Shown here: one piece after another, positions 1 through 10,918 of the stretch
How the letters are laid out: each line of letters begins with the position of its first letter
How positions within the stretch are numbered: the stretch's first letter is position 1
IMG/VR virus record: IMGVR_UViG_3300027851_000146
Location: 1-20,217 of that record
From: a virus
DNA length: 20,217 nt
Direction: 5' to 3' (one strand)
Program-made: the position numbers and the translations under genes
The notes under the pieces: model-generated
Databases searched by the model: none
What the model saw: only the letters and a program-made list of their open reading frames with translations
Told to the model about the DNA's origin: nothing

Positions 1-3000
1 GGCAAGCTCCATCTCTCGCACCTTGTTGGCGACTGCGCGCTCCTGCATGCCGATGAACTCGCGCAAGGCCGATCGGTACTCGGCAGGCGTCTCGATGCCC
101 ATGCGGGCCAGGGCTTTCAGGCGGTCGCTCGCGGTCTGAAACTGCCACGGCACGGTCAAGCCGTTGGCCTTGTTGCCACGGCGGCCGATGGCGTCCACCA
201 GCGTGTTGCCGGCGTCGATGGTCAGAGTGATGCGCTTGTCGCCGTCTCCAATCCAGATCCCGGCATTGATGGCCTCGCTCGGACTCATGATGATGCGGTT
301 CACGCCACGTTTTTCGGCGAGTACGATGGCCTTTCCGGTCAACCCGCTGCGCTTGATGGCGCGCTCGGCCAGATCCTTGCTCGGGAAAATCGCGGTCTTC
401 ACCTCGTCACCGCGGCGCACACTGAACGTGGACAGCTTGAACAGGTTGCCCGGCTCCTTGGCGAACGCCAGATAGGCGTCTGACACGTCGTCGGCCACCT
501 TCATCAGCTGATCGCCCAGTTTTTTCGTGCCATCAACGTCCTGCATCTGGCGGGCCAGGCTGGCGAGGTCTGAGCGGTAGGCGGTGAATGCTGGGAACTC
601 GGCAAAGTCGGCCGTCTCAGCGGTCGGTGGCTCACCCTTGCGCTTCTCTTGCTCGGCGTAGGTCTCGTACTTGGCGCGAAGCTCGTTGTTCTTCGCCGTT
701 GCCACCAGGCCGGTCAGCGTGTCCACCTGGGACTTTGTTCGGATGCCGTCCAGAAACTTGGCCTTGCCGTCATCGACAGACTGCGCCACATTGCGCATGG
801 TCTGCGCCTTGGCCTTCATGCCGGCTGCCTCGGCCAGTGCGCTGGATGCAAAGCGGGCGCGGCGCTCGGTGTTGGTCTTGCGGTCGCGGCCCTCAATCTC
901 GGCGGCCTGCTCGGTCAGCTTGTCGGCCATGGCGCGAAGCCGCTCCACTGCGGTTTCGCTGCGGTTGTCCTCGAAGGCATCCCGGCGCTGCTCGGCCTGC
1001 GCTTGTGCGTCGGTCGTATCGCCGCCAGCCAGCTTCAAGAACGCTTCGGCGTTTGCCTTGTCCTTGAACTGGAACCCTGGCACGGCACCCTTCACGCGGA
1101 ATGCGCTGTACCAACCGCCCAACTTCTTGGCGCTGGCCAGCACGGTCGTGTAGTCCTCACGGCTCAGGCGATCGGACAACTGCACCACGAACAGGTCGTA
1201 TCCGTCTCGGGTGTGCTTGGTGGCGATGACCTCGCCGCCCGTGGCCTGGCCTGCCGCTCGGACTTCTGTCTTGCGCTCGCGCTTGCGGGTTTCACGAGCC
1301 TCTTTGGTGGTCTCCGCCTCCATCTCGTCGAACTTGACCCGCTGTTCTGGCGTGAGCATCAAGAAGGCTTCTTTGCGGGTCTTTCCACCTCTGATGTGCT
1401 CGCGCATGACGGCCCGGAAGTCATCCAGGGTTTGCGGGTTTTCCAGCGCTTTAGCCCTTGTCTCGCGCTCTGCATTGTATTCGTCGCTGGCCTTCTTCAC
1501 ATCGGAGGCGAACTCTGCCAGCGTTTCGGCGGTCTGGCCGTCCACCAGATCGCGTAGCGCTTTAGCCTTGGCGGCATCGTAGCTCTTGCGTTCACCCATC
1601 ATGTAGCCGGTCGGTCCATACTCCTTGCCGAGCGCGTACTCGTTGACCAGCGCGTCGTACATGGCATCGATGACATCGGCCTTGTTTTCTGACTTGTAGC
1701 GCTGGTAGAAGAAGGCGCCACCGGAGCGCAGAAGTGTTTCCTTGTTCAGCGTGTTCAGTTCGGCCTTGACAGCAGACGGGTTGCCAACCATGGACTCGAA
1801 TGAGCCTTGGTAGGCCTCAACGCTGGCCGTGCCGGCGCGCACCGCCTTGATGGCCGCGGTGTGTTCATCCAGGGCCGGCGTCTTGCTGGCGGGATTCTCA
1901 TCCTTCGGCTGCGGTGCTGGTTCAGGCTTCACCGGCTCTGCTGGCTGTGCCTTGGCGGTGGTTTCAGGCTTCGGCTGGGCGGCAGAATCGTTCCCTGCGG
2001 GCACTGCTGCCGGCTGCTGCGCATCCAGCACCTCGCGCAGTTTCGTCTTCACATCGGCGTCAATCCGATCCCAGCGCTTCTCTGCCAACTTCTGGGCAAA
2101 GATGCCCTTGCGTCCAATGGCCTCGGCCACGCGCTCGCGCTCGCTCAGGTTCATGGACTCCCAGCGGCTGTCGCGGATGTCTTCGGACTTGCGGCGGGCG
2201 GCCTTCGCCTTCTGTTCGGCCATCTTCGCCAGCACACCGCGCGGTTTCTTCACCCCATCGGCTTGAACGTCACCGGCTCCTGGTGCTGCGGCTTCGGTTG
2301 TAAGGCTGCGCTTCTTGCGCTCTGCTTCCCACTTGGCACGGGGTAGCCCTTGGAATCGGAATTCCTTGATGGCATCTTCGTATGGCTTCTGCCAGTAGTT
2401 CAGTTCTGCCGCCTCATTGGCCCTGACGTTCTTTTCTGCAAGGTCAGCGTTGGCAACAGACCACGGCTTCTCATTGGCTCCGATGAACCGGCCCTGACCG
2501 TACTTGGCCTCTGCGGCCAGTCGTTTTGCGTAGCCATCGGCGTAGGCCTTGGCCTGCTCCTTTGTGTCAATCGGCATGTCGCGCAACTGCCGTGCGGTCG
2601 GCGCCTCGTCGCTTACCCCATCCGCCCGTACACCGGCGTCTTGTCCCGCTGCGGGAACTCCAGCGGCTGCGGCTGCATTGCCTCGTGCTGGCGCTGACGC
2701 TTCAACTGGCGCGGCTTGGGTTTCGGCTCCGGCGGGTCGGCTCTGTGTGTCTTGGACATTGCTCAATGCCGGTACGGCACCCTGTTCATCGACTCCAGAA
2801 ACACCAGTGCCGCGTACTGCTGGCGCCTGAGTTGGGCTGGTGTCTTCGGTGGCGGGCTGGATGGCTTGGTCATTCTTTGCTCCTGCTCGGGCTGCGTCGG
2901 CTTCGGCCTTCTTGGCGAGGATGCCGCGCGGCGCTTTCAGGTTTGCTGGGGCTGGTTGCGCTTCTCGTCCTTGCGGCGTTGTTTCTACGGCTTGAGCGGG

Positions 3001-4878
3001 CGTAGTGCCATTCGTGGGTTCTCCGGTGGTGGTTTGTGCCGCCTGGTTGCGGACGGATTGGTACGCGCCGCCGTCCACAGCAATGACTGCCGCCGATGAC
3101 ATCGGGCCGGCGGCTGGATTCAGCCCCATAGCCTGCGACGGTCGGATGGCTGGCAGGCTGTACGGGTCTTGCGGTGCGCGAGCCTGTGCTGCGGATTCGG
3201 CCGGGCGCTCGTCGGCGGTCTTGCCTCGCTCAACAGCCATGCGCTGCTCAACATCTTGCCGCGTGATGCGGCCAGCATCGAACTCACCAACGAATGCCTT
3301 TGCAGCCGGGGTGTTCACGGTTCGCAGGTTGTCCACATACCCGGAAACCGCATCGGTGTTCAGGTCCAAGGCGGCCGGGTCGGTGCTGACGCGAGCGGCG
3401 CGCTGGATCGGCGCATCCTCGACTTGAGCCACGCGAGCCAGTGCCTCGCGCAGCGATGCTTCAGCCTGTTTTGCAACCTGCGGTGTCACCCATGCGCGCG
3501 GGATCACCAGATACCCGCCGTCCGGGTGTGGTGCAACGGTGAAGTCCAGGCCCTGTTCCTGCGCGGCCACCAAGATGTTTGCGGCGGCCGTGGCCGGCAT
3601 TGGTGGGCGCTTCTCCGCTGCGCGCTGGATGTTGACCGAGGTGTTTGCATCGCTGGTGCGCTGGTCTGCCAGCATGTTGGCAAGCGGGTCGGCGCGCGAT
3701 CCAAACATGCCGCCACCGGCCAGTGCTTCGTTGTTGCGCTCGGCAAAGTCGTTGCGCGTGATCGCCGCGTCGGCGGCCAGAACTCGCGCGTCTGAAATCC
3801 GCCCGGCCAGCGGGTCGGTTCCGCGCGCCATGAGGTCCGCAGGCTCGGTGCCCGTCAGGCTTGCGCCCATGGGCTGCGTCTGCTCGGCCGGCGGCTGCAC
3901 TGGCGGCTGCGCCGGGGCTTGGTCTGGAGCCTTCCGGGAGTCCATGTAGCCCTTGAAGCCGGATGCGCCGCCACCCATGGCACCTCCAGAAAGCGTGCCC
4001 AGAACAACGGCCTCGTCAACGCCTTCGGACCAGTCCCTACCCAATGCCAGGTTCTGCAACACCTGCTCTGTCACCGACTGAGGCAATTCTTCGAGCAAAC
4101 CCTCGGTCATCGCGCCTTGGATGACCTTCTTCGGGATGCTTTTGAGCGTGCCTTGTGCCGCTGGCGCTACGAGACTCTTGGCGCCTTGAGCGACCATCGT
4201 GTCAACGTCGCCGATGCCCAGCTTGTTGGCGAGTCGCCCGCTGGCCGCGCCGACCACGCCACCGATCAGGCCCGTGCCGGCCGCGAGCGCGGATTGCCCC
4301 GGCGTCAGGTAGCCATCGGCGGTTTCCTGGCGGATGGATTCGGCCTGCTGGCCGGCCATCATCGCGCCTTCACCGGCAGCGCCGGCAATGGCCGCGCCCT
4401 TGGCTCCCATGGCGCCGAGTCGGGTTGCACCCAGAATGCCGCGCGCTGCGACACCGCCAGCACCCATGGCCGGCAGGGATTCGCCAATCGATGTGGCGAT
4501 GATGCTGGGGTTTTCGATGGCCGCCTGCAGCTTACCTCCAATGCCTTCAGCGGATTGGAACTTCTGCTGCGCCAGCTTTGTGGCGTCGGAGTTCCAGTCG
4601 CTTGCAATCTCCTTGGCCTGCTTGGGCCGGAATCCGATGGCTCCGCCTTCGTTCTCAAGGAACTTGCCGACTGCGCCGCCGGTTGGGATGTCGGCCAGGC
4701 CCACTAGGGCCTCGGGCACGCCGATGGCGCCCTTCAATGCGGTGGCGCCAATGTCCTGCGCCCAGCCCTTGAAGCCTCGGGCCGGCGGGTCTCCAGAAAG
4801 CTCCTCGTAGGAGAATGCATCCGGCTTGCTATCCGGGATCGGTGTGAGGTCTTCGTAGGAGAATGAGTCTTGTGCCAT
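1..4878 (-). CDS. Giant polyvalent, probably ejected virion protein (3' end outside window)
   Basis: An unbroken frame of 1,626 codons runs off the left edge; I translated many segments across it and met no stop. The ATG at 4878 has only a G-rich upstream stretch as Shine-Dalgarno (SD) sequence. Residues 4-11 and 20-27 form a short repeat (DSFSYEDL, DAFSYEEL). Residues about 85-305 are Gly/Ala-rich with long uncharged segments, as in internal virion proteins that cross membranes during DNA ejection. Residues about 310-340 and 590-760 are Pro/Gln/Ala-rich linkers. A charged helical block lies near 880-945. A compact block near 1205-1275 (GYDLFVVQLSDRLSREDY, then KKLGGWYSAF and VPGFQFK) resembles a domain I recall from P1 DarB-like polyvalent proteins. 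Coiled-coil-like helices follow, then another folded block near 1465-1590. No catalytic motif is visible. The position at the end of the virion cluster fits an ejected protein. That it is coding is near certain; the role is inferred. Confidence 0.85.
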   Translation of the reverse strand, partial: MAQDSFSYEDLTPIPDSKPDAFSYEELSGDPPARGFKGWAQDIGATALKGAIGVPEALVGLADIPTGGAVGKFLENEGGAIGFRPKQAKEIASDWNSDATKLAQQKFQSAEGIGGKLQAAIENPSIIATSIGESLPAMGAGGVAARGILGATRLGAMGAKGAAIAGAAGEGAMMAGQQAESIRQETADGYLTPGQSALAAGTGLIGGVVGAASGRLANKLGIGDVDTMVAQGAKSLVAPAAQGTLKSIPKKVIQGAMTEGLLEELPQSVTEQVLQNLALGRDWSEGVDEAVVLGTLSGGAMGGGASGFKGYMDSRKAPDQAPAQPPVQPPAEQTQPMGASLTGTEPADLMARGTDPLAGRISDARVLAADAAITRNDFAERNNEALAGGGMFGSRADPLANMLADQRTSDANTSVNIQRAAEKRPPMPATAAANILVAAQEQGLDFTVAPHPDGGYLVIPRAWVTPQVAKQAEASLREALARVAQVEDAPIQRAARVSTDPAALDLNTDAVSGYVDNLRTVNTPAAKAFVGEFDAGRITRQDVEQRMAVERGKTADERPAESAAQARAPQDPYSLPAIRPSQAMGLNPAAGPMSSAAVIAVDGGAYQSVRNQAAQTTTGEPTNGTTPAQAVETTPQGREAQPAPANLKAPRGILAKKAEADAARAGAKNDQAIQPATEDTSPTQAPAVRGTGVSGVDEQGAVPALSNVQDTQSRPAGAETQAAPVEASAPARGNAAAAAGVPAAGQDAGVRADGVSDEAPTARQLRDMPIDTKEQAKAYADGYAKRLAAEAKYGQGRFIGANEKPWSVANADLAEKNVRANEAAELNYWQKPYEDAIKEFRFQGLPRAKWEAERKKRSLTTEAAAPGAGDVQADGVKKPRGVLAKMAEQKAKAARRKSEDIRDSRWESMNLSERERVAEAIGRKGIFAQKLAEKRWDRIDADVKTKLREVLDAQQPAAVPAGNDSAAQPKPETTAKAQPAEPVKPEPAPQPKDENPASKTPALDEHTAAIKAVRAGTASVEAYQGSFESMVGNPSAVKAELNTLNKETLLRSGGAFFYQRYKSENKADVIDAMYDALVNEYALGKEYGPTGYMMGERKSYDAAKAKALRDLVDGQTAETLAEFASDVKKASDEYNAERETRAKALENPQTLDDFRAVMREHIRGGKTRKEAFLMLTPEQRVKFDEMEAETTKEARETRKRERKTEVRAAGQATGGEVIATKHTRDGYDLFVVQLSDRLSREDYTTVLASAKKLGGWYSAFRVKGAVPGFQFKDKANAEAFLKLAGGDTTDAQAQAEQRRDAFEDNRSETAVERLRAMADKLTEQAAEIEGRDRKTNTERRARFASSALAEAAGMKAKAQTMRNVAQSVDDGKAKFLDGIRTKSQVDTLTGLVATAKNNELRAKYETYAEQEKRKGEPPTAETADFAEFPAFTAYRSDLASLARQMQDVDGTKKLGDQLMKVADDVSDAYLAFAKEPGNLFKLSTFSVRRGDEVKTAIFPSKDLAERAIKRSGLTGKAIVLAEKRGVNRIIMSPSEAINAGIWIGDGDKRITLTIDAGNTLVDAIGRRGNKANGLTVPWQFQTASDRLKALARMGIETPAEYRSALREFIGMQERAVANKVREMELA

Positions 4879-4881
4879 CCC

Positions 4882-4900
4882 CGCACTTTCGGCGAGTGCG
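4882..4900 (-). promoter_or_regulatory. Hairpin in the leader of the giant gene
   Basis: CGCACT at 4882-4887 pairs with AGTGCG at 4895-4900 across a 7-nt loop, ending 3 nt before the giant gene's ATG. In RNA it would cover the area where a ribosome loads, so it may limit translation. A similar, stronger hairpin lies at 5290-5313 beside the second copy of the upstream motif. Confidence 0.4.
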
Positions 4901-4908
4901 CCCGGGGC

Positions 4909-4925
4909 GTCCAACCCTATGCCGG
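4909..4925 (-). repeat. 17-bp direct repeat, copy A (intergenic motif)
   Basis: The plus strand reads GTCCAACCCTATGCCGG. A second copy at 5318-5334 differs by one base (GTCCAGCCCTATGCCGG). The two flank the lone plus-strand gene at 4996-5277. A third, 13-bp version (GTCGAGCCCTATG) lies at 10968-10980 upstream of another late gene. On the minus strand the core is CATAGGGYTSGAC. It could be a phage promoter or leader element, or the trace of an insertion. Confidence 0.55.
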
Positions 4926-5747: not shown

Positions 5748-6209
5748 TCATCGGCCGATCTGCTTCCTGACTGTACCTCGAAGCGCCGAGAGCTTTGCAA
5801 TGGCATCGACGTTTTCCTGCCTCTGCTCACCGGTCAGTTCTTCGATGCGGACGTACCGGAGCCGTGTAGCAGTTGCCCTGAACGTCCGTCGCATGTCGCG
5901 CTCAAACTCCGCAGTCGCGACACGGGTCTGCTCTTCTGGCGCGCACCACCGATAGCCCTCTCCGCGCACAGACTGCAGCATGACTTGGTGGTCGCGCAAC
6001 AACTGGTCCTTGAACCCCTCGATGCTGGACAGCCACTCAAACTGCCGAGCCCGAAACTCGGCTGCACTCAGCTTTTCATCGTGCAGCACCATGGAGAAGT
6101 GATCGGCCAGCCATTCGTGCGAAACGGTGTCGCCATACTTGAACTCGTTGAGGAAGTCGCGCACGGCCTGCTTCCAGGCAGGAAACAGCTTCACGGATGA
6201 ATCAGCCAT
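5748..6209 (-). CDS. Phage protein with winged-helix-like segment (153 aa)
   Basis: I recall similar unnamed proteins in other proteobacterial phages, but no function. The ATG at 6209 begins 3 nt after the stop of the 190-aa gene, so the two are probably co-translated. Residues about 8-35 (AWKQAVRDFLNEFKYGDTVS) and the segment LRDHQVMLQSVRGEGYRW near 72-89 recall the helix-wing end of OmpR-type winged helices (VRGxGYR), so DNA binding is possible. The C-terminal third is helical and basic, with an EELTGEQRQENVDAIAKL helix. It is the last gene of the antirepressor operon before the pentamer arrays, and could bind them; that is only a suggestion. Confidence 0.8.
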   Translation of the reverse strand: MADSSVKLFPAWKQAVRDFLNEFKYGDTVSHEWLADHFSMVLHDEKLSAAEFRARQFEWLSSIEGFKDQLLRDHQVMLQSVRGEGYRWCAPEEQTRVATAEFERDMRRTFRATATRLRYVRIEELTGEQRQENVDAIAKLSALRGTVRKQIGR

Positions 6210-6212
6210 GGC

Positions 6213-6785
6213 TCAGGCTCCAAAAGAGACGGCGAACCGACCAAACCGCGGGCGGTATTCGCAGACCCCGATCAGCGCCCCAGCATCCGTGATCGCCTTC
6301 CTTGCCTCCTGCAGATCAAGCACATCGGGGTTCACGACAACGGTGAATTCTGCAGCCCACCGGAGAAACACTGGTCGATACCGCATGATTTTCGCCGTCC
6401 CGACCTTGACGCCTCGGCAGTCAACAAATGCCGGGTTTTCCCATAGATCGTCAGGCGTCTTTGGGCCGTCGTGCTTGATCTTGATGCGGTTTTCAAGCAC
6501 CAACGCACCGCGCCGCCAGTGCGTGCCGAGTTTTTGCAGCTTGGCCCCAGCCAGCAGGGTTGCATCGACGTTTTGCCCTGGAATGAAGAAGCCATCGGCG
6601 GCGTTCCAGTAGCACCCAGCGATGAACTCGCTGCGCGCAATGGCCAGATGGTCGTCATCTGTTTTTTTGCGCTTGCAGGTCAGCTCTTTGTGAAGCTTGG
6701 TCGCAGGGTGCAGCGGGTTTGCGAACGTGTCGGCGTGCATCATCAGCGGCGCCGTTCCTTCGATTTTGACTGAAATCTGTTCCAT
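6213..6785 (-). CDS. Conserved phage protein, possible RAMP/Cas7-like fold (190 aa)
   Basis: The start at 6785 is supported by GAGGA about 6 nt upstream; the frame is open further upstream but encodes Arg-rich shadow sequence overlapping the previous gene. The protein opens with a beta strand, ISVKIEGTAPLMMHAD, has a basic segment CKRKKTDDDHLAIAR near 43-57 and a central FFIPGQNVDATLLAGAK. It ends with a helix, then ALIGVCEYRPRFGRFAVSF. The opening strand with PLMMH and the closing Gly-rich loop before a strand recall RAMP/Cas7-type RNA-binding proteins. This is pattern resemblance only; no cas gene or CRISPR is present. I recall unnamed relatives in many phages. It lies 8 nt after the 64-aa gene and 3 nt before the 153-aa gene. 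Confidence 0.85.
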   Translation of the reverse strand: MEQISVKIEGTAPLMMHADTFANPLHPATKLHKELTCKRKKTDDDHLAIARSEFIAGCYWNAADGFFIPGQNVDATLLAGAKLQKLGTHWRRGALVLENRIKIKHDGPKTPDDLWENPAFVDCRGVKVGTAKIMRYRPVFLRWAAEFTVVVNPDVLDLQEARKAITDAGALIGVCEYRPRFGRFAVSFGA

Positions 6786-6793
6786 GGCGATCC

Positions 6794-6988
6794 TCAGGCG
6801 GGTTGAGTTTGAAGTTCGAGAACTGCGATCTGGTTGGCGGTCAATCCAGACGTCAGGTCGGCGCGCTCGTTGAGCTGGCACGCGGTGCCATGGAAGACGA
6901 CGGCGCCGGTCATGTGGCTGGTGAGCCAAACGACGTCATCGATATCGGAGACTCCGAGGCCGAACGGGTTTTGGTGGTGAGTGTGCAT
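6794..6988 (-). CDS. Hypothetical 64-aa protein
   Basis: The start at 6988 is chosen because it falls 2 nt after the stop of the upstream 155-aa gene, a typical coupled arrangement, with a weak GGAAG as SD. The product begins MHTHHQNPFGLGVSD, which is His-rich, followed by IDDVVWLTSHMTGAVVFHGT and an acidic, Leu-rich tail. No family recognised. Its existence rests on operon packing and length rather than on motifs. Confidence 0.6.
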   Translation of the reverse strand: MHTHHQNPFGLGVSDIDDVVWLTSHMTGAVVFHGTACQLNERADLTSGLTANQIAVLELQTQPA

Positions 6989-6990
6989 GG

Positions 6991-7458
6991 TCAGTTCGCT
7001 TCCGCAAGCTCGATCATGTCTCCGAGTACCCGGAAGTCCTCTGGCAGTTTTTTCAGGCAATCCTTGAACAGGCACTCGCGTTTTAAGGCGTTGTCCGCCA
7101 GTGAAACGACGGAAGATATTTGCCACCACGACTTGAAAAACTCATCTTCGCTGATGCTCTTGGATGCTTGCAAGCTCTGCAGTTCCTTGCGCGCCAGGTC
7201 AAGCGAGAAGTCCACATCGCTGTCGTTTTTCCCATCCCAGTCTTTGTCGGTACGCCGGATGTTGGCCATCATCTGCATCGTGTCCAGGATCACTGCGATG
7301 GCCAGATTTCGGGCTTGCTGGACGGTAGGAAGCGTGGCGTCTTGCCCATTGGTCCTTGAGGTGGTATCTTTCATGTTGAATCTCGCTCTGTTTGTGGGTT
7401 CATTCCAGAAGGCCTCGACGGTTGCACCCGTCGGGGCTTTCGCCTTTTTTGCGGTCAT
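6991..7458 (-). CDS. Hypothetical 155-aa protein downstream of the antirepressor
   Basis: The ATG at 7458 overlaps the antirepressor stop as ATGA and has AAAGGGGT about 9 nt upstream, so this start is preferred over the internal ATG at 7374. The N-terminal 30 residues are basic and Pro/Ala-rich (MTAKKAKAPTGATVEAF). The rest appears helical: a segment TVQQARNLAIAVILDTMQMM near 44-63 is followed by acidic and amphipathic helices ending KLPEDFRVLGDMIELAEAN. There is no recognisable domain, signal peptide or membrane span. Translational coupling implies that it is made together with the antirepressor. Confidence 0.75.
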   Translation of the reverse strand: MTAKKAKAPTGATVEAFWNEPTNRARFNMKDTTSRTNGQDATLPTVQQARNLAIAVILDTMQMMANIRRTDKDWDGKNDSDVDFSLDLARKELQSLQASKSISEDEFFKSWWQISSVVSLADNALKRECLFKDCLKKLPEDFRVLGDMIELAEAN

Positions 7459-8168
7459 TGCGTGACCCCTTTTGCCGGTTGCCTCGTCAGCAGTTCGCCA
7501 TGCCGGGCGACGAATCTGCGGATGAACTCAATGCCGCGGCCTGTCACCCGGGCAGCGTGGGCGATCCGAGCGCCTGCCGTGGTCGTTTCATACGTGTGGA
7601 TCGACTCAACAAAGTAGCCCTTCTGAACATACTCAGATGCTGGGGCGTTGTTGCCCAGGATCACGCCCTTTTCCTTGAGCGCCTTGTGAAGCTTCATCGG
7701 ACCGACACCCAGGGTCTTGGCAACGTCGCGAACCAGAGTGGTGCCATCGGCGTTCAGCAGTGCGTCGGCGTATTCAACCTTTGGCCGATCGGTTTCGATC
7801 TTCAGTTGCTGGGCCTCGATCTGCTCCTGCTGCTCTGCGGCCAGTCGAAGCGCTTGCGCAAAGGTCTGTGGCAGCGCAGGCGATTTGGCGGATTCAAGCT
7901 CTTGCCAGCGATCAACCAGACGCGCCGTGAACTCAGGGGAAAGCTGGGCGACGATGACGTAGCTGTCACGCTTGCCGACTCGGTACTCTGTTCCAGGCCG
8001 GCCGCCGGTCTCGGTCTTTTCCTCAATTTGAGGAGAAGTGACCACGCCGCGTTCGGCAAGGGTTTCAATGGTCCGCTTCACGTTGTCGTGACGCTTTTCC
8101 ACGAGGTCAGCCAACTCCCGGCTGGTCATGGTCAGGCTTGTGTTGGCCAGGGCGGTGATTGCGTTCAT
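7455..8168 (-). CDS. Rha-type regulatory protein with C-terminal KilAC/ANT domain (antirepressor)
   Basis: Residues 1-95 match the phage Rha domain: TMTSRELADLVEKRHDNVKR starting near 13, then the YVIVAQLSPEFTARLVDRWQELE block at 70-92. Residues about 100-130 are a Gln-rich coiled linker (AAEQQEQIEAQQLKIE). Residues about 130-225 match the KilAC/ANT antirepressor C-terminal domain, with VRDVAKTLGVGPMKLHKALK and GRGIEFIRRF. Such two-domain proteins are known phage antirepressors or regulators. The gene starts in an ATGA overlap with the Arc-like RHH gene and ends in another ATGA overlap with the 155-aa gene. By analogy with P22 arc-ant, expression would be held down by the RHH protein made from the same transcript. 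The P22 Ant protein itself has different domains, so this is functional rather than sequence equivalence. Confidence 0.9.
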   Translation of the reverse strand: MNAITALANTSLTMTSRELADLVEKRHDNVKRTIETLAERGVVTSPQIEEKTETGGRPGTEYRVGKRDSYVIVAQLSPEFTARLVDRWQELESAKSPALPQTFAQALRLAAEQQEQIEAQQLKIETDRPKVEYADALLNADGTTLVRDVAKTLGVGPMKLHKALKEKGVILGNNAPASEYVQKGYFVESIHTYETTTAGARIAHAARVTGRGIEFIRRFVARHGELLTRQPAKGVTQ

Positions 8169-8335
8169 GCTGCAGATCCTTGAACCCTCTCCTGCTCTTC
8201 CCGGCTTTTCTCAAGGCGATAGAGCACCTCGCCATTCAGGGTCCTGCGGTTATCGACTGCCTGGTGCTTGAGCCATCGTTTGAGGTCATCTGGCATCCGC
8301 ACCATGACGGCCGGTGATTCACGTCCTACGTTCAT
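8165..8335 (-). CDS. Arc-like ribbon-helix-helix repressor (56 aa)
   Basis: This small gene reads MNVGRESPAVMVRMPDDLKR and continues through a TLNGEVLYRLEKS helix to end VQGSAA. An ideal SD (AAGGAG) lies 6 nt before the ATG. It aligns well with P22 Arc: the beta strand PAVMVRMP corresponds to Arc PQFNLRWP, with the Arg in the same place, and TLNGEVLYRLEKS to Arc SVNSEIYQRVMES. Ala and Met replace two of Arc's base-contacting residues, so the operator would differ. As an RHH protein it should bind DNA as a dimer or pair of dimers. It is the first gene of the operon, overlaps the antirepressor start (ATGA) and diverges from the second RHH gene at 8433. Confidence 0.9.
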   Translation of the reverse strand: MNVGRESPAVMVRMPDDLKRWLKHQAVDNRRTLNGEVLYRLEKSREEQERVQGSAA

Positions 8336-8349
8336 TTGCATCTCCTTGC

Positions 8350-8402
8350 ATTTCTATGCACGGTCTGTGCACGGATGCATTCTAAACACGGTGCATAGAA
8401 AT
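8350..8402. promoter_or_regulatory. Operator region between the two divergent RHH genes
   Basis: ATTTCTATGCAC at 8350-8361 is the perfect inverse of GTGCATAGAAAT at 8391-8402 (12 of 12 bases, 29 bp apart). Between them TGCACGG occurs at 8357-8363 and again at 8368-8374, spaced 11 bp (one helical turn), and a third TCTA lies at 8381-8384. The arms contain TAGA, the core of the known Arc half-site in P22. This is the expected place for both RHH proteins to bind. Confidence 0.6.
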
Positions 8403-8408
8403 GTGCAA
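8379..8408 (-). promoter_or_regulatory. Candidate promoter of the Arc-like/antirepressor operon
   Basis: On the minus strand TTGCAC (8403-8408) is followed after 18 bp by TAGAAT (8379-8384), which would start RNA about 35 nt before the ATG at 8335. The right arm of the inverted repeat lies in the spacer, so a bound repressor would block the promoter. A clear promoter for the plus-strand gene was not found. Confidence 0.4.
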
Positions 8409-8432
8409 TCTTTTTCGTGGCACAGTGCGTAG

Positions 8433-8717
8433 ATGGCACGAACTGACCCAACGATATACATGCGGATCCCGCAATGGCTAAAGGACAAGCTTGATGCTGC
8501 CGCCGAGTCAAACCACAACTCTTTGACGGCGGAAGTTGTTCGGCGACTCTCGGAGAGCTTTGAATCACCGAGGCTCGGTTTTGGCCCTGGAAGTGTTGGC
8601 GATCAACTTGAGAAAGCTCGCATCGAAGCGATTGAACGGCTTGAGGCCGCTGCGCCAGCGATTGCTGATCGCGTGTTGCAGCTAATCAATGAGAAGCTGA
8701 AGGCTGGCGAGAAGTGA
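8433..8717 (+). CDS. Mnt-like ribbon-helix-helix repressor (94 aa)
   Basis: The N-terminus MARTDPTIYMRIPQWLKDKL follows P22 Mnt (MARDDPHFNFRMPMEVREKL) closely, including MARxDP, the beta strand with Arg and the Pro that caps it. The second helix, SLTAEVVRRLSESFESP, matches Mnt SMNSELLQIVQDALSKP. A helical C-terminal extension (about residues 57-94, GDQLEKARIEAIERL onwards) corresponds to the tetramerising coiled coil of Mnt and is slightly longer. Mnt in P22 represses the arc-ant promoter in the prophage. There is no good SD before the ATG at 8433, so translation may be weak or from a very short leader. It diverges from the Arc-like gene across 97 bp. Confidence 0.9.
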   Translation: MARTDPTIYMRIPQWLKDKLDAAAESNHNSLTAEVVRRLSESFESPRLGFGPGSVGDQLEKARIEAIERLEAAAPAIADRVLQLINEKLKAGEK

Positions 8718-8726
8718 CAAGCCCGG

Positions 8727-8735
8727 TGCTATATT
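8727..8735 (+). promoter_or_regulatory. Extended -10 promoter of the membrane-protein gene
   Basis: TGCTATATT at 8727-8735 matches the extended -10 form TGnTATAAT with one change. It lies just after the stop of the Mnt-like gene and 21 bp before the ATG at 8757. No good -35 is seen at the usual distance, which extended -10 promoters tolerate. Confidence 0.5.
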
Positions 8736-8756
8736 TCAGCGAACAAGGGGCAAGCA

Positions 8757-9125
8757 ATGGATCTGACTCAAGAGAAAACCACGCCGATGGCGATCACGGT
8801 TGCCAGGCATGTCGTTGGTATGGCGGTCGTGGCGCTAGGGAACCCGATGATCTACAGCGACCCGAGCCCGCTATTTGTCTGGCTCACGGGCTGGGTGATG
8901 GCGCTGCTGGTCGCATCCGTAGTATTCGGCGTCTATGCGCTGCTCTTCACATCGCGAGCAAAGTTCGTGTGGCCTCGCATGGTCTTGGCCATGGCGTGGG
9001 TCATCGTTGTGCTGTACGCCCTGGGAGGGTGGTCTGAATACAACCATACAGACCAAGAGCCACCCACCAAGAACCAAGACTTTGATCCCGACTTCTGGAA
9101 AAAAGGCGGGACCCCGGTCAACTAG
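8757..9125 (+). CDS. Small membrane protein, SieA-position moron (122 aa)
   Basis: The start at 8757 has AAGGGG 6 nt upstream. Two clear membrane spans are visible, about residues 39-65 (PLFVWLTGWVMALLVASVVF onward) and about 74-91 (MVLAMAWVIVVLYALGGW), with a weaker hydrophobic stretch at about 14-30. The C-terminal 30 residues are polar and charged (NHTDQEPPTKNQDFDPDFWK). I recognise no family. The orientation, own promoter and place beside the Mnt-like gene recall P22 sieA, a prophage-expressed inner-membrane exclusion protein, but SieA is longer (about 160 aa) and I see no sequence match. The stop overlaps the convergent 598-aa gene within CTAG. Confidence 0.8.
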   Translation: MDLTQEKTTPMAITVARHVVGMAVVALGNPMIYSDPSPLFVWLTGWVMALLVASVVFGVYALLFTSRAKFVWPRMVLAMAWVIVVLYALGGWSEYNHTDQEPPTKNQDFDPDFWKKGGTPVN

Positions 9126-10918
9126 TTCTTGATGTACGTCTTGCCATCAGGCCCGACATAGCGAGCTCCTTTCGGCATCGCGTCGAATGCAGCCTTCCCG
9201 GCCGCGTCAGGCGTTATCTTCGCGGTGCCTTGCGCTTGAACCTGCTGCCCCTGAACAGGCTGCCCAGTGCGTTTGTTCACGATGATGTCAGGGCTCTTTG
9301 TGACCATTCCGGTGACTGGATCAACGCTTTGACCGCTGGAAACTGCCATGTACTCGTCGCCCTTGACGTTCCCTGACAAGGCATTTAGCTTCGTGACGAT
9401 TGCGGATTGCTCTTCTGGAGTACGGGCGTTCAAGTATGCGGCGCGCAATTCGGCGATCTGCTTGGCGGATTTGAGCTCCACGCCAGCGGCATCGCGCTTG
9501 ACGCTGTTCGTCGCCGAGTTGTCGGCCAGCTCCTGCGCTTTCAGGTCGCGATTTGCGGCTGAGTCACCCATGCGCGCGGCCAACTCCTGCGACTTGAATC
9601 CACGGTCTGCTGCTGATTCGGTAGCGGACTGCGCCAGTCGATCACGCTCGATCTGCTGGCCTGGTGCGTCGGCCTGCTGCTGCAAGAAGCCTTGGAGCGC
9701 CAGTTTTGAGCCGGGTTTTCCCTGCTGCACATCCATCGACAGGTTGCGCTGCTGAATGCGGTTGGAGTTCGCCAAGCCGAAACCATAGCCCTGCCCGGTG
9801 TCGGGTGGCGTGAGGTTCTGAGACGCCACAGGCGCTGGTGATTGAACCTGCGGCGTGAACCCGCGGGCGGCGGATCGCTGCGCCAGGCTGTCGGCCGCTG
9901 CCATGTTCTGCTCAGACACGGAGCTGCGCGGCTTGAACCCGGCGGGTCCGCTGTAGCTCACATCGCCGGACACGTTATCACCGCTGAACTCCATCACGCC
10001 ATTTGGCTGGCGTCGCACGTTCACATTGCCAGAGGTCTGCATGTTCGCCTGGGCGGCCGGCGTGCCGGGTTGTTCTGGTGCGCCGGATGGCGTCACGGCC
10101 GTGGCTGCAGGGGCAACTGGTGGCGCCTTGGCGACTGGACTCACGACGGGCGGCGTCGCGGCCTGAGCCTCACCACCGAAGCCGAGAAACTGCTTCGCGG
10201 CGTCCATCGCGCCCGGAACCACGGCCCGAACTGCTCCGCCGACCAGATCGTCAGCCACGGCTGGCCCATACGCCGTCGCGGCGCGTGCAGCCTCGCCCAG
10301 CGCGGCGCCATACCGGCCTTGCCCGGCCAGATCGCCGATAGCCTTTCCTGATTCGTTGAACACCGCCCGAGTGCCCGGCATGAAGCCTGGACCCGATGGC
10401 GTTGGCGACGGCTTCACGGCCTGCGGATTGATGAACCCGCGGCCACCGCCTGCGGCTTGGTCGCCAACAAGCGGCGCCGGCTGTGGCCGCGGCGGCATGC
10501 CGGCGCTGTACATCTTGGTCATGTCGCGCTGCACCTCGGGCTGCAGCGTTGGCATGAACGGCTTGCGCTTTTCATCGTCCAGCGGCCCGCCATTGACAAA
10601 AAAGAACTTCTGCCCTTCTGCGCCCTGCTCGGGTACTGGCGTGTGCGTGGCGTTCTTCATGGCCTCCAGCGCCTGAAACCCGCCCGCGGCCTGCACCTGC
10701 TGCGGGTTCAGCACCGCCTCGCCAGCGCTCAACTGCGCCGCGCGCATGCCGGGCTTGAACCCAGTCGCCTGCACAGTGTCTGCGGGAAGAACGAACCCGT
10801 CTCGCGGCACCATGGCCGGAACGCTATCGGACGTGCCGCTTCCTGGCCCCTTGACGATTCCGCCATTGGCGTAGTTCTTCGGCTGAGTCTTGTGTTTCTG
10901 CGGGTGAAAGCCTTGCAT
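9122..10918 (-). CDS. Virion-associated protein with GPGSGTSDS motif (598 aa)
   Basis: AGGAG lies about 7 nt before the ATG at 10918. Residues about 16-50 carry YANGGIVKGPGSGTSDSVPA and VPRDGFVLPADTV, a motif common in phage virion proteins and at tape-measure C-termini. Residues about 70-380 are Ala/Pro/Gly-rich and partly disordered, with a hydrophobic Ala-rich part near 200-250. Residues about 420-510 are a helical, charged region with repeated steps of the form SAxxRxxKxQELA. The C-terminus ends YVGPDGKTYIKN. No enzyme motif is visible. The place after the tail genes and before the immI-like locus matches that of P22 ejection protein gene 16, so an ejected or internal virion protein is likely, by position only. 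Confidence 0.8.
   Translation of the reverse strand: MQGFHPQKHKTQPKNYANGGIVKGPGSGTSDSVPAMVPRDGFVLPADTVQATGFKPGMRAAQLSAGEAVLNPQQVQAAGGFQALEAMKNATHTPVPEQGAEGQKFFFVNGGPLDDEKRKPFMPTLQPEVQRDMTKMYSAGMPPRPQPAPLVGDQAAGGGRGFINPQAVKPSPTPSGPGFMPGTRAVFNESGKAIGDLAGQGRYGAALGEAARAATAYGPAVADDLVGGAVRAVVPGAMDAAKQFLGFGGEAQAATPPVVSPVAKAPPVAPAATAVTPSGAPEQPGTPAAQANMQTSGNVNVRRQPNGVMEFSGDNVSGDVSYSGPAGFKPRSSVSEQNMAAADSLAQRSAARGFTPQVQSPAPVASQNLTPPDTGQGYGFGLANSNRIQQRNLSMDVQQGKPGSKLALQGFLQQQADAPGQQIERDRLAQSATESAADRGFKSQELAARMGDSAANRDLKAQELADNSATNSVKRDAAGVELKSAKQIAELRAAYLNARTPEEQSAIVTKLNALSGNVKGDEYMAVSSGQSVDPVTGMVTKSPDIIVNKRTGQPVQGQQVQAQGTAKITPDAAGKAAFDAMPKGARYVGPDGKTYIKN

Follow-up and report, generated by a model that had tools for sequence, protein, structure and literature searches.

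A probable P22 immI-type second immunity cassette with a Rha-KilAC antirepressor, and its relatives in other phages

Two divergent repressor genes and an antirepressor operon

In the DNA analysed here (the window; virus record IMGVR_UViG_3300027851_000146 of IMG/VR, 20,217 bases), two divergent genes for ribbon-helix-helix (RHH) proteins, the shorter of them heading an antirepressor operon, recall the second immunity region (immI) of phage P22. The plus-strand gene (8433–8717) encodes a protein of 94 amino acids (aa) (MARTDPTIYMRIP), here called the Mnt-type repressor. The minus-strand gene (8165–8341) encodes the 58-aa Arc-type repressor, which is 56 aa long if started at the second ATG (8335), by eye the better placed start. 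Both proteins match Pfam Arc (8.7e-8 and 5.4e-6, respectively), the only family above its own cut-off for either, and the divergent RHH pair proposed in a first-pass annotation of the window is confirmed. The antirepressor gene (7455–8168, minus strand, 237 aa) overlaps the stop codon of the Arc-type gene with its ATG, as ATGA, in agreement with the annotation. It encodes a Rha N-terminal and a KilAC C-terminal domain in Pfam and PHROGs scans (Phage_pRha 2.1e-11, KilAC 1.7e-21, PHROG_63 anti-repressor Ant 8.6e-65), and had correctly been described as a Rha-KilAC protein rather than a P22 Ant.

The 56-aa protein had also been aligned with P22 Arc. Its place in the Arc family stands; a particular closeness to Arc does not, as in pairwise comparison the protein is equally near AmrZ, Mnt and Arc (weak matches in the Protein Data Bank [PDB]). 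It is best called an Arc-family protein, not specifically an Arc. When a profile of 15 Mnt-type sequences, each from a separate locus and P22 Mnt included, was searched against the PDB, it matched Mnt at 2.4e-18 and Arc at 1.9e-10. An AlphaFold monomer model of the 94-aa protein (pLDDT 79, pTM 0.39) has helices at residues 14–27, 31–44 and 55–93, i.e. RHH helices followed by a long C-terminal helix, and suggests, with moderate confidence, a Mnt-like C-terminal helical extension (residues 55–93). The top Foldseek rows for this model were Arc, TacA1 and AmrZ, all with E ≥ 0.1.

An RHH pair could instead be an antitoxin-type or plasmid-partition regulator that stands beside an antirepressor by accident of position. 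This explanation draws on FitA-like and TraY matches of the short protein, which are weak and below their cut-offs, and on the name 'partition protein ATPase' of the best-matching PHROGs families. Against it, only Arc passes its cut-off for both RHH proteins, P22 Mnt is itself annotated as 'partition protein ATPase' in NC_002371, and the gene behind the short RHH is of an antirepressor class in 65 of 77 pairs (see below). We regard accidental neighbourhood as highly improbable, and on the first two grounds a toxin–antitoxin or partition reading was rejected. The label 'partition protein ATPase', which phrog_795 and phrog_2685 give to Mnt- and Arc-type repressors in other records too, is a misnomer, because P22 Mnt itself bears it.

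The 97 bases that separate the two RHH genes contain an operator-like array (8349–8432), recognized by an inverted repeat, by half-sites and by conservation in three sister loci (L103, L104 and L105; L numbers denote loci compared with the window). The 16-nt inverted repeat (94%) spans 8349–8364 and 8388–8403. The half-site CTATGCAC is exact at 8354–8361 and, inverted, at 8391–8398; it recurs with one mismatch at 8365–8372 and, inverted, at 8425–8432, and with two at 8382–8389. The 8-mer recurrence in this region was matched by 1 of 40 dinucleotide shuffles. The top minus-strand promoter match, the predicted P-ant (8379–8408), is TGCACA-17-TAGAAT (by eye also TTGCAC-18-TAGAAT) and has half-sites within its spacer; no plus-strand promoter match was found within 7300–9300. 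The sister promoters are TTGCGT-17-TAGAAT in L103, TTGCAA-18-TAGAAT in L105 and, by eye, TTGCAC-18-TAGAAT in L104, where the script's best match is a different site. Near-invariant operator blocks are common to the window and all three loci. The half-site array overlaps the predicted operon promoter, as P22's does.

The likeness to P22 immI (NC_002371) extends to the whole plan: two divergent Arc-family repressors with the short one heading the antirepressor operon, an operon on the virion strand within a late virion cluster, and an operator in the P-ant spacer with a second one beside it. The P22 promoter match is TTGACA-17-TATATT, whose spacer contains the annotated Arc operator, with the Mnt operator next to it; in the window, half-sites lie in the spacer of TGCACA-17-TAGAAT. 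The spacing from RHH domain to RHH domain is 122 nt in the window and 118 nt in P22. The outputs differ: P22 Ant matches P22_AR_N and P22_AR_C, whereas the Rha-KilAC protein of the window is without P22_AR domains. The operator sequences differ too, and the window operon, unlike that of P22, continues towards a gene for a protein of predicted Cas7 fold and one of phrog_5926.

On the minus strand, the antirepressor gene is followed by a gene for a 155-aa protein (6991–7458) that overlaps it by 4 nt, by the gene of a phrog_4652 protein (6213–6785), the operon partner with the predicted Cas7/Csm3-type RAMP fold, and by that of a phrog_5926 protein (5748–6209), the usual neighbour of phrog_4652 (13 of 14 loci). 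Beside the Mnt-type gene on the plus strand, at the position of SieA, lies, as had been noted, the gene of a small membrane protein. This predicted 122-aa protein (8757–9125) has two hydrophobic segments by a Kyte–Doolittle count that gives four for P22 SieA. The impression that it is unrelated to SieA was correct (BLASTP against P22 SieA, E 1.2; best PHROG, E 0.2), and one scan of viral contigs confirmed no relatives of it. Virion genes recognized by family matches flank the cassette on both sides on the minus strand, so the location inside a virion cluster is also borne out: upstream are a head-closure gene, Hc3 (phrog_8040, a name also borne by P22 gene 10), and other structural families, and downstream is a giant protein of virion-type families. 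Because the head-closure gene is Hc3-type, we infer that the phage is a podophage. The gene of the giant protein (1–4914, minus strand) is cut by the record end; the terminal part of the protein there matches families of 2,800–3,400 aa, and one family that it matches carries the label DNA methyltransferase. The betaproteobacterial host that had been proposed is not established, the nearest phrog_4652 relatives among named hosts being in Acidovorax facilis (75%) and in a Pseudomonas syringae phage (70%).

Recurrence of the plan and exchange of its parts

A scan with the single sequence of the window Mnt-type protein confirmed no relatives, and an alignment was needed. Three IMG/VR scans for related loci were made via the Rha-KilAC protein (best 80 of 136 loci), via the phrog_4652 protein and via an alignment of Mnt-type proteins, the last without the antirepressor (best 80 of at least 238 matches). 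A divergent RHH partner was present in 63 of the 80 Mnt-type loci (65 at a looser cut-off), with one tandem and seven convergent arrangements; because the profile was seeded from divergent pairs, 63/80 does not tell how often RHH genes in general are arranged in this way. The Rha scan gave 22/80 loci with any RHH match and 19/80 with a divergent pair, none tandem or convergent, and the phrog_4652 scan gave 6/10 and 4/10, respectively. In total, 182 records were scanned for pairs, and 95 of them contain 96 pairs, 77 of these pairs being non-redundant, with a domain-to-domain spacing of 103–253 nt (median 134). The window cassette is not a one-off, as its family is widespread, and the inverted repeat, the recurrent 8-mer and the repetition of the plan in many other loci put the window arrangement beyond chance.

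Among named phages, the triad of RHH pair and antirepressor was recognized by annotation or profile in P22, in Pseudomonas phage UFJF_PfDIW6 and in SPN3UB. UFJF_PfDIW6 has, like the window, a divergent Arc-family pair, which in this phage lies near a tailspike gene; unlike that of the window, its antirepressor has P22_AR_N. The triad lies between the major tail protein and tape-measure genes in Klebsiella ST11-VIM1phi8.1, in the nin region in JLK-2012 (the Mnt-type gene being unannotated), near a baseplate gene in Edwardsiella GF-2 (the short RHH being weak by the local profile, E 0.21), next to tail genes in Acinetobacter TCUAN1 and between the tail chaperone and tape-measure genes in qsb1; in Acetobacter phiAX1 it includes KilA-N. 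In phi3, vB_Pae_CF55b and vB_RleM_PPF1, an RHH match was found with no annotated antirepressor alongside. The longest flanking ORF, in 20 loci taken at random from 52 eligible ones, was of a tail, head or packaging kind in nine (L104 weakly), giant DarB-like or related in three and uninformative or other in eight.

Two features of individual loci may be recorded here. L055 has two RHH-RHH-antirepressor cassettes back to back (6253–8720) that differ in their Mnt-type strands (DKFVV vs VQTNL) and in their operator words (ATGGCGA vs TTGCTTG). In L105, which holds a sister cassette of the window's, a gene for a SocA/Panacea-type antitoxin (6931–7509, minus strand) is located near the Mnt-type gene.

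A membrane protein at the SieA position had been put forward as part of the plan. We rejected it as a general element: downstream of the long RHH, 16/77 loci have an ORF of at least 60 aa that encodes a hydrophobic segment, and so have 16/77 in the antisense control (two or more segments in six loci vs two).

By local profiles, an antirepressor-class domain, of eight domain types in all, lies behind the short RHH in 65/77 pairs and behind the long RHH in 1/77. These profiles were built from the scanned effector proteins and are partly circular, and the members of the set that came from the Rha scan have an antirepressor by construction. In the Mnt-type scan alone (49 non-redundant pairs), the corresponding counts are 38/49 and 1/49. 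In a Pfam scan of 30 of the 63 effector clusters, picked mostly for length, 28 have an antirepressor-class domain (L111 below Pfam's own cut-off); no such domain was found by Pfam in L024, where a 99-aa frame lies ahead of the antirepressor, and in L103. The domains occur in several combinations of Rha, KilAC, Bro-N, P22_AR_N, P22_AR_C, KilA-N, AntA, ORF6N, ORF6C and P63C. They belong to a single shuffled phage domain set; the shuffling of antirepressor domains is reportedly the subject of Iyer, Koonin and Aravind (2002).

Even close controllers differ in what they control. The window, L103, L104 and L105 have the Mnt strand TIYMR in common, and the window Arc-type protein is 67% identical to that of L105 over 49 aa and 65% to that of L104 over 46 aa, the Arc-type protein of L103 differing from the rest of the group. 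Their outputs are Rha-KilAC in the window, an unclassified protein in L103, ORF6N and then Rha in L104, and KilA-N in L105. Conversely, in L004, which encodes the nearest relative found for the window antirepressor (71%), the gene upstream is of the AlpA type and no RHH match was obtained. Relatives of phrog_4652 were found in 14 loci (phrog_5926 in all but L060), behind KilA-N in L087 and L117, Bro-N in L089, ORF6N in L085 and L088, and Rha in L086 and Medea1, with no RHH match in L091–L094. Because one controller group drives different effectors and phrog_4652 trails different outputs, controller, effector and follow-on genes appear to reassort separately.

The follow-on genes look like a unit of their own, because phrog_5926 directly follows phrog_4652 in L091–L094, the loci with no RHH match, and in P. 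aeruginosa phage LESphi2 (L187). The phrog_4652 operon partner is also present in L085–L095, L117 and L002. The model of the window phrog_4652 protein (pLDDT 88, pTM 0.81) points to a Cas7/Csm3-type RAMP fold: nearly all of the 50 VIA rows listed are Cas7-like chains of CRISPR type III, IV or VII, and the top row has Z 8.8 (rmsd 3.5, 151 aligned), where Z values of 7–8 are common without true relatives.

Separate RHH genes might have been recruited repeatedly beside antirepressors, with no single mobile controller. We examined this convergence in a tree that was computed from the helix columns alone and comprises 153 RHH domains. The tree has just 32 columns, and 19/153 rows, P22 Arc included, have mostly neighbours of the other label, which leaves room for such recruitment. 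However, the short and long labels require only nine changes on the tree, whereas in 200 shuffles the number averaged 51 and never fell below 42; the spacing of the pairs is similar throughout, and the antirepressor follows the short RHH in 65 pairs but the long RHH in a single pair. Convergence is therefore doubtful, though it deserves some weight. The tree favours two old lineages, short and long, that travel together, although with so few columns it is suggestive only.

Strand residues and operators within pairs

Apart from the conserved Arg, two strand positions contact DNA; they correspond to Lys18 and Val20 of the Lys18-Val20-Arg22 strand described for AmrZ of Pseudomonas aeruginosa (PMC3325190), and we compared the partners of each pair there. 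AmrZ is of the same RHH family as the window proteins and, unlike them, is a chromosomal regulator. The comparison covered 76 pairs. To our knowledge, AmrZ has neither a divergent partner nor an antirepressor.

Strand identity within pairs was 0.57, compared to 0.23 with shuffled partners (0/5000 shuffles reached the observed value). The excess persisted in the 24 pairs below 60% identity (0.52 vs 0.20; 0/5000) and in the 13 pairs below 50% identity (0.42 vs 0.15; 3/5000). Helix A had no coupling (1096/5000 shuffles reached the observed value at 76 pairs and 2867/5000 at 24), and helix B had a slight excess at 76 pairs (109/5000) that faded at 24 (595/5000). Gene conversion is not favoured as the origin of the shared strands, given little or no coupling in the adjoining helix columns. 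Both strand residues match in 35/77 pairs and neither in 26/77. Outside this set, two of the four pairs of GF-2, phiAX1, qsb1 and TCUAN1 share both residues by eye; the phiAX1 pair shares an unusual His, and qsb1 resembles L136 and L161 of the set and is not independent.

In the intergenic regions, a recurrent 8-mer occurs on average 4.10 times, against 2.55 in shuffles, and in 43/77 loci its recurrence was reached by at most 2/40 shuffles. Promoter matches of at least 9/12 are found in the arc direction in 41/77 pairs and in the mnt direction in 13/77, with mean best matches of 8.32 and 7.51, respectively, and 7.30 in shuffled sequence. The palindrome score of the spacers was 3.26 in 57 loci, against 2.93 when shuffled, and no locus reached six pairs; because this score is barely above the shuffled one, a repeat inside the P-ant spacer is proposed only for P22 and the window's group.

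Similarity between operators, computed with the coding ends trimmed, correlated with similarity between Mnt strands when the helix was allowed for (partial r 0.385 at 30 loci, reached by 0/1000 permutations, and 0.263 at 20 loci, 2/1000). It had no such relation to the Mnt helix when the strand was allowed for (0.053 at 30 loci; 166/1000). For the Arc-type protein, the values at 30 loci were 0.124 for the strand (10/1000) and 0.112 for the helices (15/1000); the Arc-strand link was below the Mnt-strand link at every cut and was lost at 20 loci (176/1000). At all 77 loci, all four partial correlations exceeded 1000 permutations, and because those of the helices did so too, relatedness is not fully removed there. 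These correlations suggest that operators follow the Mnt strand.

The structure of AmrZ (PMC3325190) suggests that K/Q-x-V/I-x-R strands read GGC. The eight loci with V/I strands have a mean GGC z of 2.19, compared to −0.15 in the 69 others (p = 1.5e-4), in a test that was not blind, since the regions had been seen beforehand and the motif came from that paper; GGC enrichment also occurs in the R class (p 4.9e-5). In post hoc tests, with 4-mers picked after the sequences had been viewed, N strands go with AGCA, K strands with AACC/GACC and R strands with CCAC/CACA. Many cassettes thus appear to have a private operator matched to the strand of their Mnt-type repressor, and in many the Arc-type strand appears to match as well.

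The proposed circuit and its place among known systems

We consider it probable that the cassette of the window serves second immunity in the manner of P22 immI but with an output other than that of P22, and that cassettes of this kind are widespread, an RHH-pair controller being coupled in them to different antirepressors. The control would resemble that of P22, the model for immI-type regulation as outlined in PMC2629481 and PMC11016777. In a lysogen, the Mnt-type protein would occupy the array and the antirepressor would stay off. In a cell without the Mnt-type protein, an entering phage would fire the operon, and the antirepressor would then inactivate the main prophage repressor, which would be encoded off this fragment, before the Arc-type protein shut the operon down. 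The RHH pair and its own operator would form a controller able to couple to different antirepressors. The first-pass annotation had drawn the same central inference, of immI as a portable circuit with exchangeable effectors, and sequence comparison supports it, because the RHH proteins did not fall into unrelated toxin–antitoxin families and the arrangement is not absent elsewhere; the eight domain types of the outputs, and the named records with cassettes beside tailspike, tape-measure, tail-tube or baseplate genes, fit it.

Several observations weigh against this interpretation. Pairwise similarity does not split Arc from Mnt, for which reason the names Arc-type and Mnt-type rest on position and length, and the helix-column tree puts P22 Arc beside P22 Mnt and not among the short RHHs. 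P22 has an arc-ant spacer with sar, and in the window, because the Arc-type and antirepressor genes overlap, that spacer is gone; where P22 has sieA next to mnt, the window membrane protein is not SieA-like. The window's own pair is among the 26/77 that share neither strand residue. Among the loci of the Mnt-type scan, 15/80 are without a divergent pair even at the looser cut-off, and 12/77 pairs have no antirepressor domain behind the short RHH by local profiles, although four of these 12 are at most 1.4 kb from a contig end, L085 has ORF6N and KilAC by Pfam, and in L169 the labels given by length are reversed. Finally, no integrase and no primary repressor was recognized on the 20,217-base fragment.

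The last observation also bears on another explanation, in which the cassette would time the takeover of the host and not confer immunity: in a possibly strictly lytic phage, the RHH pair would limit expression of an early operon (Rha-KilAC, the Cas7-fold protein and phrog_5926) to a short pulse. The absence of a recognized integrase agrees with it, as do the continuation of the operon towards phrog_4652 and phrog_5926 and the fact that six of the 129 phage records with phrog_4652 relatives are named Felixounavirus, a lytic genus. However, it is not obvious what a maintenance repressor of the Mnt type would do in a pulse that serves lytic growth only, L095 is located in an Acidovorax facilis assembly, and in PfDIW6 an integrase gene adjoins the triad. 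We consider a timing device unlikely and retain the immunity cassette as the preferred reading.

Parts of this picture were known. Besides the P22 region itself, which is classical, its variation in P22-like phages has been described: PMC2629481 reports an 'ant moron' of ten types in sixteen P22-like phages and prophages, a variable insert between virion genes that, like the window cassette, often has mnt, arc and an antirepressor, and considers one ancestral insertion, later modified, to be plausible. In this respect the novelty claimed for the window had been overstated, the gene turnover at this place having been described already. Unlike the 'ant moron' of P22-like phages, the cassettes here stand among other virion gene sets and have other antirepressor classes. 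Related elements are mentioned in several further papers: an Edwardsiella prophage with named Ant, Mnt and Arc (PMC6372524), Arc-family genes of filamentous phages (PMC7549136), a Psychrobacter phage in which an Arc-like gene and a KilA-N gene are listed as divergent between tail genes, with no second RHH named (PMC10434257), and a phage whose mnt homologue is reported to be poorly conserved and to have no arc, ant or sieA at its site (PMC8022706). Pseudomonas phage Medea1 has, like the window, an Arc-type gene, a Rha-type antirepressor and relatives of phrog_4652 and phrog_5926 in order, in an operon inside the tail cluster; unlike the window, its divergent gene encodes a helix-turn-helix (HTH) regulator, not an Mnt-type RHH, and by its tape-measure gene it is long-tailed. 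In one library of open-licence papers, PMC6372524 and PMC7549136 apart, we found no account of the RHH-pair and antirepressor plan outside P22-like phages; we found none of an RHH pair controlling other antirepressor classes there and none of covariation between paired strands and operators. It is the wider cassette family and the shared-strand result that deserve attention.

A broader proposal, to which we give about even odds, is that address-labelled second-immunity cassettes form a large family in phages. Each would have a private operator, read in many of the cassettes by both repressors via shared strand residues; the controller would be exchanged between antirepressors of eight or more domain types, and the cassettes would often lie in the late clusters of different kinds of phage. 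The paired repressors are a natural data set on how ribbon-helix-helix strands choose DNA, and orthogonal repressor–operator pairs are useful parts for gene circuits. If the proposal is true, the strand-to-operator code could be readable from sequence, and second immunity would be a mobile, mutually orthogonal layer that is independent of the main repressor. Operator sequence could then help to predict which cassettes cross-react, and the cassettes could help to predict which prophages exclude which phages. P22 immI, so far treated mainly as a feature of P22-like phages, would be the archetype of a common layer of phage immunity.

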